DNA of 64,000 nucleotides from Thermophilibacter provencensis (lineage in GTDB: Bacteria; Actinomycetota; Coriobacteriia; Coriobacteriales; Atopobiaceae): positions 62,001 through 126,000 of the forward strand of contig NZ_LT671417.1 of assembly GCF_900128445.1 (NCBI RefSeq), written 5' to 3'. Made by a program: the position numbers and the translations under genes. The notes beneath the pieces were generated by a model, which did not search any database, was not told where the DNA came from, and worked only from the letters and a program-made list of their open reading frames with translations. This document shows positions 13,212 to 20,487 of the stretch, one piece after another (within the stretch, counting starts at the first letter, position 1; the number at the start of each line of letters is the position of its first letter).

Positions 13212-14453
13212 ATGAGACTTGCCGACCACGTCGAGCTCTTCTCTTTGGGAGGCATTCCCATGGCGGGCAACCTGGAGACGGGCGGGGTCATTGGCCTCAC
13301 GCGCGCAGGCGAGACGCTCTGCCGGAAGATGTCGGAGCGCGATGCCATGACGCGCGAGGTTCCCGCCGAGTGCGAGTCGCTCGTGGAGCATCTGCAGCGC
13401 GGGGGCTACCTCGCCTCCTCAGAGCGTCCCTCGACGGGGCGGGGTCACGTGCGCTCCGCATACCTGCACGTTACGCAACGCTGCAACCTTCGCTGCAAGT
13501 TCTGCTACTCGGAGGGCGATGACAGGAACCTCCTGCCAGACCCCTCGGCAGAGAGCCTGGCCAGGGCCATCGGTCTGCTCGCCTCGCTTGGGACAAAGCG
13601 CCTCGTCATATCGGGAGGCGAGCCGTTTCTCCGCGACGACCTCCCCGACATCGCCCGCTCCGCCTCAATGGCAGGCATCGAGGAGATAGTCGTCCTCACC
13701 AACGGGCTGCTCGTCAGCGAGAAGAACGTGGCATCGCTTGCCGGGGTCGTGAGCTGCGTCGGCGTCGCGTTCGACGGATGCTCGAACGACGCCACAGCCC
13801 ATCTGCGCGGGGGGCAGAACTTCGACCAACTCGTCGCCGCAGTCAAGACGATTCGCACGGCGGGAATCGCGGCGCGGGTCCTTCCAACGATTCACGGACG
13901 CAACCTGGGAGACATGGGCCGCTATCGGGACATCGCGCGCAAGCTGGGGGCAAGCGTCGGGTTCAGCATGCTCACCGCACCCCTCTCCGAGCTCGGCGAG
14001 TTCGCGATTGATGACGGCCAGCTCGCCGATCTGGGCCGGGCCGCCGCCGATGACGGGCTGGACTACGGGGACGACCTGCCCGGGGGAGGCTCGCTCGGGG
14101 TGCGCAGGTCCTGTGGGGCGGGCGTCCGAACGCTCAGCGTGGCAGCTGACGGGACGGTCTATCCCTGTCACATGCTGCACGACCGTCGCCTCGCCATGGG
14201 CGACGCCTTTTCCGACGATGCCGAGAGGATTATGAGCGGCGAGGCGGCGCGCCTGTTCGCCAGCCTTGACGCCAGAACGTTCGATAGCTGCGACGCCTGC
14301 AGTCGGCGCCCGATGTGCGGCGGAGGGTGCCGCGCGCGGGCGCTCATGTCCACGGGCAGCCTCACCGGGCGCGATCCGTACTGCGCTCTCCCAAGCGCGT
14401 ACTACGACCGCCTTGGCGAGCGCCTGCGGCGGCGATTCGCCGAAGGGAGGTGA
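13212..14453 (+). CDS. Radical SAM/SPASM peptide-maturase-like enzyme with N-terminal PqqD-like domain
   Basis: 413 residues. Residues 1-75 resemble the PqqD-like RiPP recognition element (ETGGVIGLTRAGETLC followed by a winged-helix-like LVEHLQRGGYL). The radical SAM core carries the CX3CX2C motif CNLRCKFC (C91, C95, C98) and the SAM-binding VISGGEP. The C-terminus is a SPASM domain: CGAGVRTLSVAADGTVYPC, then CDACSRRPMCGGGC matching CX2CX5CX3C, and a last Cys in DPYCAL, giving two auxiliary clusters. Such enzymes install thioether or C-C crosslinks in short peptides. The ATG at 13212 follows GAGGAGG. A 22-residue open frame starts 5 nt after the stop. The locus and its upstream region (12930-13211) are AT-richer than the neighbours, suggesting transfer. 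Confidence 0.9.
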   Translation: MRLADHVELFSLGGIPMAGNLETGGVIGLTRAGETLCRKMSERDAMTREVPAECESLVEHLQRGGYLASSERPSTGRGHVRSAYLHVTQRCNLRCKFCYSEGDDRNLLPDPSAESLARAIGLLASLGTKRLVISGGEPFLRDDLPDIARSASMAGIEEIVVLTNGLLVSEKNVASLAGVVSCVGVAFDGCSNDATAHLRGGQNFDQLVAAVKTIRTAGIAARVLPTIHGRNLGDMGRYRDIARKLGASVGFSMLTAPLSELGEFAIDDGQLADLGRAAADDGLDYGDDLPGGGSLGVRRSCGAGVRTLSVAADGTVYPCHMLHDRRLAMGDAFSDDAERIMSGEAARLFASLDARTFDSCDACSRRPMCGGGCRARALMSTGSLTGRDPYCALPSAYYDRLGERLRRRFAEGR

Positions 14454-14458
14454 TTTGC

Positions 14459-14527
14459 ATGCTGTTCGAGATCGAGGGGCGCGGTGGATTCTGCTTCACA
14501 ATCGCAGGAATTACTATCGGCTGGTAA
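14459..14527 (+). CDS. Candidate RiPP precursor peptide, 22 residues
   Basis: Short frame squeezed between the radical SAM gene (5-nt gap) and the DUF2975 gene (10-nt gap), with a near-perfect ribosome binding site GGGAGGTGA. The peptide reads MLFEIEGRGG (1-10) then FCFTIAGITIGW (11-22), with a single Cys12 between two Phe and a C-terminal Gly-Trp. The acidic/polar N-terminal part could be the leader bound by the enzyme's PqqD-like domain and the hydrophobic rest the modified core. I do not recognise the family. The alternatives are a translational-coupling leader for the downstream membrane protein or a signalling peptide. Confidence 0.6.
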   Translation: MLFEIEGRGGFCFTIAGITIGW

Positions 14528-14537
14528 GGAGATAAGC

Positions 14538-15026
14538 ATGCCTGAGAAGCTCATTGCCAACTATCAAAAGGCAAGAATAGCCTCGCTTGTTGGAGCTATT
14601 GCTCTCTATGTTTTGGGGACGAGTTGCATCGCAACCTTACTGATTTACCTCATAGCTGTGTTTCAGATAGGGGGAACGGCGGAGCATCTGTTCCGCGCAT
14701 TAATCCCAATATGCTCGCTGCTATCAATTTCGATATCAGTTATTATGCTCGCCGAGTTTTTCCGTCACTTCTTTACGGACTACTCCCCCTTCAATCGTCG
14801 CCAATCAGTTCGGCTAATATGCGCTGCAGTTGCCCTTTCGATAAAAACGTTTCTTGACGGCCTTCTTCCCTCATTTGAAGAAACAGCACTGTCCGCAGGC
14901 ATTACGCTCGTGCCCCAGTCCGGCCTTGACCTCAAGGTCGTCGTGATGGTCGTCTTTCTCGTCTGCCTTGCGATGGTCGTTCGGTATGGAGATGCCCTCA
15001 AAGAAGACTCCGATGCTTTCGTTTAG
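14538..15026 (+). CDS. DUF2975 family membrane protein
   Basis: 162-residue integral membrane protein with four predicted helices (about residues 13-40, 52-77, 90-115 and 130-152 from start MPEKLIANY). The arrangement with a small Cro/CI regulator directly after it is the well-known DUF2975/YozG-like pair, whose function is not established. The ATG at 14538 follows AAGGAG, 10 nt after the stop of the 22-residue peptide, so the four genes from 13212 are probably one operon. Base composition is clearly lower in GC than in flanking housekeeping genes. A role in export of, or immunity to, the peptide is possible but unsupported. Confidence 0.75.
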   Translation: MPEKLIANYQKARIASLVGAIALYVLGTSCIATLLIYLIAVFQIGGTAEHLFRALIPICSLLSISISVIMLAEFFRHFFTDYSPFNRRQSVRLICAAVALSIKTFLDGLLPSFEETALSAGITLVPQSGLDLKVVVMVVFLVCLAMVVRYGDALKEDSDAFV

Positions 15027-15067
15027 TATTGTTAAACGAAATGAACGCCGTTCTGGAGGTGAAAAAG

Positions 15068-15337
15068 TTGCCTATCGTCATGCGACTTGACCGTGTCATG
15101 GCCGAGAGGAAAATCACGTCGACGGAGCTTGCCAAGAGAGTTGGCACCTCTACGGTCAACCTCTCCAACATCAAGAACGGCCACATCAGGGGAATGCGCT
15201 TCTCCACGCTTGAGGCCCTGTGCCAGGTCCTCAACTGCAAGCCGGGAGACATCATCGACTACATGACCCCCGAGGAGGAGCAGGCCGAGCGCACCCTCGG
15301 CGAGATTCGCGAGAGGAACTACGAGAAGCGAAGCTAG
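15068..15337 (+). CDS. YozG-like Cro/CI family transcriptional regulator
   Basis: Short DNA-binding protein (89 residues) with one HTH: IVMRLDRVMAERKITSTELA, recognition helix region TSTVNLSNIKNG, and the CQVLNCKPGDIIDY ending typical of the HTH_26 group. I place the start at a TTG at 15068 because GGAGGTG lies 7 nt before it and the family starts with this strand; an in-frame start further upstream is possible but has no ribosome binding site. The tail is acidic and charged. It probably regulates its own operon (13212-15337). Confidence 0.8.
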   Translation: MPIVMRLDRVMAERKITSTELAKRVGTSTVNLSNIKNGHIRGMRFSTLEALCQVLNCKPGDIIDYMTPEEEQAERTLGEIRERNYEKRS

Positions 15338-19593: not shown

Positions 19594-20366
19594 TCATCTG
19601 TCAGGTTCTTCTCGCCCGCCCAACAGGACATGGGCTATGGTCCCGCGCCCCATGCCGGTCAGGCGCTCGATCCACCGAATCGAGAAGCCCTTCTCGCCCA
19701 GGAGTCTGATGGCGGCGTCCCTTCGGGCCCTCGAGAGCCTCTTGACGTCTCCCGGCGCGCCCAGGCCGGCGGCGGAAAGCACCTCGGTCGCCACGCAGAG
19801 CCGCGCGTTCTCGTCCATGCCGCGCCCGAGCCTCGGCACGTAGACCACGCCCCCGTCATCCGAGCACAGCGCGATGAACCCTTCCGGCCCCTGGACCATG
19901 TCAAGCACCGTTTCCGTCCGCGCAAGGCCGGGTGCGCCCAGGTACTCCTGATAGCTGCTCCACCGATACTCCCCGCCGGGCACACGCCCGCCCGCTCCGG
20001 GTTCAGGTGCACATACCGCACGGCGGCCAGAAGATAGCGGTCCCCCTCAATCGGCTCGCTGAAGAATCGTTCCTGAAAGACGTGGCCGACATGCCCGGTC
20101 CGCTCGTTGAAGTACCGCGCATAACGGGACAGCAGCATCCTCATAGCCTCGCTCATCCTGCCTTCCGCGTCCTCGAGGACCATGTGAACGTGATTCTCCA
20201 TGAGGCACCACGCAATGATCTTCACGCCAGCTGCGGACGAGCTTTCTCCCAGCATGCGCACGAACGTCGCGCGATCATCGTCGCTCTCAAAGATGATCTG
20301 CTTTCCGTTGCCCCTTGCAACAACGTGATAATACCCTGACTCCGATTCCCTTCGCGCTGCCCTCAT
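19594..20366 (-). pseudogene. REP-associated tyrosine transposase (Y1_Tnp), frame-disrupted
   Basis: RAYT-type HUH transposase of the IS200/IS605 superfamily. The N-terminal part in one frame starts MRAARRESESGYYHVVARGN, contains the HUH pair in CLMENHVHMVLED and the Tyr-containing MLLSRYARYFNER, then RYVHLNPERAG; the continuation EYRWSSYQEYLG and a C-terminal helical DNA-binding-like domain are in another frame. The break is near 19975-19990, in a run of G/C. It may be inactivating, a programmed slip, or a sequence error. The ATG at 20366 follows AAAGGGGGAGGG. REP-like repeats flank both sides. AT-rich DNA without genes lies upstream (20367-20487). Confidence 0.8.
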
Positions 20367-20487
20367 CCCTCCCCCTTTCGTCCCGAGATGAGGCACATCA
20401 TCGCATATGAGTCAATAATTTTATTCAAGTTATATATTTAGCTATTAAAATACTATGAAGTTTTGTGTCACATTTCGGTTAGTTTCA

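Follow-up and report, generated by a model that had tools for sequence, protein, structure and literature searches.

What does a frame of only 22 codons encode, when it starts 5 nt past the stop codon of a gene for a radical SAM/SPASM enzyme? The question is raised by a locus of Thermophilibacter provencensis, contained in a stretch of 64,000 nucleotides referred to here as the window. A sequence-only reading had proposed that the frame encodes the substrate of the enzyme, with Cys12 or Trp22 as the possible site of a thioether or C-C crosslink. The best explanation of the locus is a compact RiPP cassette of four genes (a maturase, a 22-residue precursor, a membrane protein and an XRE regulator), in which the enzyme very probably cross-links the peptide. 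The enzyme-precursor pair is also found in scattered Bacillota, and none of the protein-family libraries searched describes it.

The enzyme and the short frame beside it

The first part of the locus comprises the following features:
13212-14453, plus strand: radical SAM/SPASM peptide maturase of 413 aa with an RRE-like N-terminal domain (about residues 1-70), based on the open reading frame, motifs, profiles and a structure model
14443-14453, plus strand: ribosome-binding site AAGGGAGGTGA of the precursor gene, overlapping the enzyme stop; the motif also precedes the precursors of relatives
14459-14527, plus strand: precursor peptide MLFEIEGRGGFCFTIAGITIGW of 22 residues, conserved beside the enzyme and constrained at the codon level; leader about residues 1-11 (14459-14491), core residues 12-22 (14492-14524)

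The enzyme is encoded once in the T. provencensis genome. Its C91-x3-C95-x2-C98 motif and its seven-cysteine SPASM pattern (C301...G314-x4-C319...C360-x2-C363-x5-C369-x3-C373...C391), both recognized from the start, are invariant in all 27 aligned enzyme sequences, and the protein scores above the Pfam cut-offs for both Radical_SAM and SPASM. The Pfam search gave no PqqD match in the window enzyme. In an AlphaFold2 model (pLDDT 90, pTM 0.88), a strand-strand-strand-helix-helix arrangement (residues 7-63) precedes the radical SAM and SPASM regions. The top PDB match of the model is CteB (5wgg, 5why; E about 1e-19, Z 28.4, rmsd 6.5 over 375 residues), in an alignment that begins at model residue 6. 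Since the N-terminal domain of CteB is a precursor recognition element (PMC8172795) and the alignment includes this region, the model suggests that the window enzyme is likely to carry an N-terminal precursor recognition domain as well. NCBIfam names no specific family for the window enzyme. The best model for three divergent enzymes of the family is StsB (NF045574), with 108 bits for the window enzyme and 102 and 132 bits for the other two against a cut-off of 625, which is far enough below the cut-off to indicate relatedness only. Scores also fall below the cut-offs for the PapB ranthipeptide model (NF047865; 75, 92 and 102 bits, cut-off 340), the WgkB tryglysin maturase model (NF050035; 92, 92 and 106 bits, cut-off 650) and, for the window enzyme, the mycofactocin maturase model (TIGR03962; 66.7 bits, cut-off 265), and the window enzyme is far under the cut-off of the PqqE model.

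Is the short frame a gene? A frame of 21-65 residues starting with MLF lies behind 70 of 83 distinct homologous enzymes. An automatic rule (a Cys-containing frame of the MLF/MQF type behind the enzyme, preceded by a ribosome-binding site, Gly not being required) matched 69 of the 83, and L121, where the precursor overlaps the end of the enzyme inside a longer frame, was added; the remainder are the frameshifted L117, L009 at a contig edge and 11 enzymes without the frame. Applied to 77 loci, the rule matched 64; on the reverse strand it matched none of them, and shuffles gave 0.6 of 77, so that the frame occurs far more often than chance would allow. The pN/pS ratio is 0.55 in frame and 0.90-0.96 in the other frames for the set of 22-residue precursors, and 0.42 in frame against 0.97-1.02 for the set with two cysteines. 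In both sets, which are independent of each other, constraint at the amino-acid level is confined to the proposed frame, and the short frame is a real gene. A search for the frame beside homologous enzymes had been set beforehand as a check, and the proposal passed it, codon-level conservation being present. The window frame and the precursors of relatives have no match in NCBIfam or Pfam, even at E 10; Rfam gave no match, and no inverted repeats that could serve as an operator were found 5' of the enzyme. The apparent frameshift in the L117 precursor may stem from faulty sequencing of a draft genome or mark a decayed gene.

A scan of contigs and searches of whole genomes recovered homologues from Atopobiaceae (mostly at about 57-86% identity), Coriobacteriaceae, Eggerthellaceae, Lachnospiraceae, Bacillaceae and Paenibacillus. 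At E <= 1e-60, 67 of 396 Coriobacteriia genomes, about one in six, encode the enzyme; at E <= 1e-90, it is encoded by 2 of 193 genomes in one Bacillota family and by 2 of 299 in another. It is thus sporadic in these Bacillota families and common in Coriobacteriia, which are frequent inhabitants of animal and human guts. A precursor gene of this length would escape ordinary gene callers. Plasmids gave no match, and viral contigs a single distant radical SAM match and nothing else. Across the genomes compared, the precursor gene is tied to the enzyme in two phyla, since the frame lies beside the enzyme throughout Coriobacteriia and again in Bacillota. The pairing of enzyme and substrate, as proposed from the window, is strongly supported, and it is highly likely that the enzyme modifies the peptide, whose MLF-type leader would be bound through the probable N-terminal recognition domain.

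Homologous enzymes lacking the frame had been named in advance as evidence against the pairing. Such enzymes exist: for 11 of the 83, a search of the coding strand over about 1 kb found no precursor. However, ten of these 11 loci are coriobacterial and lack the downstream membrane-protein gene as well, and this joint absence looks like the loss of a unit and not like evidence against the pairing. The loci that have kept the enzyme in this way are L015, L087, L091, L095, L098, L099, L104, L106, L112 and L113. At L015, L087 and L095 the XRE gene alone is left, 260-320 nt behind the enzyme.

The membrane protein and the regulator

Two further genes follow the precursor in the window:
14538-15026, plus strand: four-helix DUF2975-like membrane protein, candidate receptor or immunity protein, based on a structure model and co-occurrence with the precursor
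15029-15337, plus strand: small XRE-type regulator (HTH_26, by Pfam), the true start probably being a later ATG (15041 or 15080)

The window membrane protein reaches 20.5 bits with DUF2975 (PF11188), under the gathering score of 27; a Lysinibacillus homologue, encoded upstream of its enzyme, reaches 35.4 bits. The model of the window protein (pLDDT 90) has four long predicted helices and no significant match in the PDB, which does not imply a new fold. The regulator scores 76.1 bits with HTH_26 (PF13443), above the gathering score of 22. Coriobacterial loci have the enzyme gene first, then the precursor, the DUF2975-like membrane protein and, usually, the small XRE regulator, in differing chromosomal settings. 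The membrane-protein gene accompanies the precursor in 63 of 63 coriobacterial loci and is found in 0 of 10 where the precursor is missing (the counts include L117 and L121 but neither the loci of Bacillota type nor two loci truncated at the end of the contig or of the retrieved sequence). On this comparison, the precursor travels with the membrane protein in Coriobacteriia. Such strict co-occurrence, usually with a small regulator behind, suggests a peptide signalling or immunity circuit. No leader peptidase, exporter, dehydrogenase or further tailoring gene is found among the genes of the coriobacterial cassette; general cell machinery would therefore need to supply the leader peptidase and the exporter.

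How might such a circuit operate? The product, or a trimmed form of it, may be recognized by the membrane protein, and the XRE protein would then be freed or held depending on peptide level, by analogy with SdpI/SdpR. That the DUF2975-like protein senses the mature peptide, leading to immunity or to release of the XRE protein in the SdpI/SdpR manner, is a tentative proposal, in which the peptide would be a putative toxin or signal. DUF2975/XRE pairs also occur without such radical SAM enzymes.

In the Bacillota loci, genes for an ABC ATPase with an ABC-2 permease, for a CAAX-type protease and for a small membrane protein follow the precursors, along with a second ABC exporter. Such exporters, permeases and proteases are typical of RiPP clusters. 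Two Bacillota genomes (L019 and L128) have a DUF2975/XRE pair upstream of the enzyme. In a locus of the Eggerthellaceae group (L109), which groups with the Bacillota loci on the tree, two precursors are followed immediately by an ABC ATPase gene. Three Bacillota loci (L016, L021 and L022) contain 2-4 tandem, diverged precursors within about 500 nt 3' of a single enzyme, with their own ribosome-binding sites. Elsewhere in the window, at 19594-20396 on the minus strand, lies a short transposase-like frame (YHVVARGNGKQIIF, ENHVHMVLE) in two overlapping frames, probably frameshifted, which we take to resemble REP-associated tyrosine transposases.

Two classes of precursor and the predicted bond

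The residues on which the predicted chemistry depends are:
14492-14494, plus strand: Cys12 codon, predicted thioether donor
14507-14509, plus strand: Gly17 codon (Cys+5), turn residue or alternative acceptor
14519-14521, plus strand: Gly21 codon (Cys+9), most likely acceptor

Among 76 distinct precursors, 75 begin with MLF and one with MQF, and Cys is present in all 76, in keeping with Cys12 as the reactive residue. The GGF and the terminal Trp expected from the window peptide as a conserved pattern are not conserved, the last residue in relatives being V, Y, F, T, M, L, N, W, I or A, and Trp22 was for this reason rejected as a modification site. The precursors fall into two classes. In the larger (49 of 76; for example MLFYSEADPRSVCYPIGFNGSCFAIGF, from a relative), two Cys are spaced 8, 9 or 10 residues apart, and Gly is at Cys+4 in 49 of 49 for both of them (C-x-x-hydrophobic-G), although the search rule had not required Gly. 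The other 27, including the window peptide, have one Cys and end at Cys+10; Gly is at Cys+9 in 27 of 27, at Cys+4 in 11 of 27, and at +4 or +5 in all 27. Positions Cys+3, +6 and +8 are near-invariant hydrophobics. On the enzyme tree, the one-Cys rows form a single clade (support 100/98) nested among two-Cys rows; the clade also includes L009, whose contig stops before the precursor. The one-Cys form is thus most simply derived, by one loss of the second cysteine (Cys2). Within this clade, position +9 has undergone no change, position +4 at least 10 (with 7 switches between Gly and non-Gly) and position +5 at least 4. The joint loss of Gly+4 and Cys2 has a Fisher p of 1e-9, a figure that ignores relatedness. 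To judge from the alignments, the window peptide is a reduced form, with a single Cys, within a far broader family of twin-motif precursors that has a membrane protein and a regulator of its own. The precursors of L013 (Olsenella profusa) and L065 (MLFESMNCACCLHIGRFHIGY and MLFESMNCACCLQIGRFHIGY), inside the one-Cys clade, carry three clustered Cys (C-A-C-C), a variant that a single-bridge model leaves unexplained.

Which bond would the enzyme form? On balance, conservation points to a sactipeptide-type thioether from the Cys sulfur to a Gly alpha-carbon; with Gly as the acceptor, a link to a beta- or gamma-carbon is impossible and only an alpha-carbon thioether can be formed. In the one-Cys class Cys2 has been lost, yet the Gly of the second motif (Gly2) is invariant and that of the first (Gly1) has been freed. 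This fits bonds from Cys1 to Gly2 and from Cys2 to Gly1 across an antiparallel hairpin; bonding of each Cys to its own Gly would predict that Gly2 was freed once Cys2 was lost, the opposite of what is seen. The acceptor of the one-Cys class may then be the invariant Gly at Cys+9 (Gly21), an assignment made with some reserve, and the bond would close a hairpin with strand C-F-T-I, turn A-G and strand I-T-I-G. A two-residue turn at +4/+5 would set +3 opposite +6, +2 opposite +7, +1 opposite +8 and Cys opposite Gly+9. The leader would dock on the N-terminal domain, a SAM-derived radical would take the Gly alpha-hydrogen, and the Cys sulfur would close the thioether with the auxiliary cluster as electron acceptor. 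For SPASM sactisynthases, alpha-hydrogen abstraction followed by thioether closure with an auxiliary cluster is established chemistry. The ancestral two-Cys product would be an antiparallel pair of C-x-x-hydrophobic-G blocks, with Cys1 joined to Gly2 and Cys2 to Gly1; we know of no sactipeptide in which the acceptor precedes its Cys, as in the latter bond. The cross-strand topology would follow from constraint in one clade only, and it is possible that Gly+9 was retained for recognition or C-terminal processing instead. Cross-strand charge pairing between +2 and +7, used as a test of the hairpin, gave no clear signal.

Alternatively, each Cys could bond to its own Gly at +4, giving two unnested rings in sequence and, in the window peptide, a Cys12-Gly17 ring. 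The C-to-G spacing is exactly 4 in 98 of 98 motifs, with an inter-motif spacing that varies from 8 to 10, StsB is the top NCBIfam match, and streptosactin itself has two unnested alpha-thioether rings, Cys25-Ser28 and Cys31-Gly34 (PMC8172795). However, it was Gly1 and not Gly2 that was freed by the loss of Cys2, the nearby Gly of the one-Cys class shifts between +4 and +5 at constant peptide length, which is more turn-like than acceptor-like, and the spacing in streptosactin is 3. Small rings of this kind are in our view rather unlikely. A different radical reaction (a beta- or gamma-carbon thioether at the conserved Ile/Val, a C-C bond or an epimerization, with the Gly serving as turns only) is an improbable alternative. 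A CteB-like fold leaves the bonded carbon unfixed: CteB is a SCIFF maturase, and NCBIfam calls the SCIFF family thioether-forming with no carbon specified. The near-invariant hydrophobics would also be accommodated, but the strictest feature of the precursors is an invariant Gly at a fixed distance from each Cys, and the PapB scores are just 75-102 bits. A small redox cofactor as the product, made from the peptide as PQQ is from PqqA and mycofactocin from MftA, is very unlikely: precursor size, the PqqE/mycofactocin-like SPASM enzyme and the exporter-less cassette would fit, but genes for a peptidase, a dehydrogenase or other tailoring steps are absent from the cassette, the last residue of the peptide is free to vary, the mycofactocin and PqqE scores are far under their cut-offs, and the Bacillota relatives have export and protease genes. 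That the frame, very short and tightly spaced between two genes, is instead a regulatory or translation-coupling leader for the membrane-protein gene is likewise very improbable given the amino-acid constraint, the Cys/Gly pattern fixed across phyla, the different downstream genes of Bacillota (ABC transporters) and the tandem copies there, as many as 4, each of which has a ribosome-binding site.

We thus favor, as fairly probable, a RiPP in which Cys12 is joined by a thioether to a Gly alpha-carbon, likeliest that of Gly21. The resulting hairpin, with its one bridge, would be sensed by the membrane protein and regulator, or these would confer immunity against it. A wider picture is speculative and doubtful as a whole: a widespread RiPP family, so far not described, with an ancestral product of two antiparallel blocks stapled at both ends by Cys-to-Gly alpha-thioethers, reduced in Atopobiaceae and Coriobacteriaceae to a single-bridge hairpin of about 11 residues; in Coriobacteriia it would act as an exporter-free signal or toxin with its own membrane receptor and XRE regulator. 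With natural one-bridge and two-bridge forms in the same family, the choice of acceptor for each Cys by such enzymes could be tested directly.

Relation to known systems

The open-access papers searched contained nothing describing MLF / C-x-x-hydrophobic-G precursors, which may be listed elsewhere under another name, and the section on new pathways in PMC9062424 describes no similar cluster. By motif, the closest known system is streptosactin (GggA/GggB; StsB), where a short precursor likewise adjoins a SPASM radical SAM enzyme and contains two Cys, each with a Gly (or Ser) acceptor at a fixed short distance. The family described here differs in an enzyme far under the StsB cut-off, a C-to-G spacing of 4 instead of 3, the MLF leader and the one-Cys derivative, and its partners are DUF2975-like and XRE proteins, whereas those in streptococci are quorum-sensing regulators. 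The SCIFF maturase CteB is the nearest solved fold, at about 19% identity; it shares the radical SAM and SPASM parts and, as predicted for the present enzyme, an N-terminal recognition domain and peptide thioether chemistry. The precursors of SCIFF maturases differ in sequence and contain six Cys.

The predicted cross-strand hairpin, from Cys to alpha-carbon, resembles type I sactipeptides such as subtilosin A, thurincin H and ruminococcin C. The hairpin spacings of ruminococcin C, 7, 8 and 13 (PMC8172795), are comparable to the Cys+9 proposed here; the predicted single bridge with an invariant Gly as acceptor, the 11-residue core and the transporter-less coriobacterial cassette set the present family apart. 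In Bacillus subtilis, the membrane immunity protein SdpI, on binding the peptide toxin, sequesters the autorepressor SdpR (PMC1626106). The likeness, a small polytopic membrane protein and a small repressor encoded beside a peptide, is one of working principle and not of family membership, the partners here being a DUF2975-like four-helix protein and an XRE regulator.
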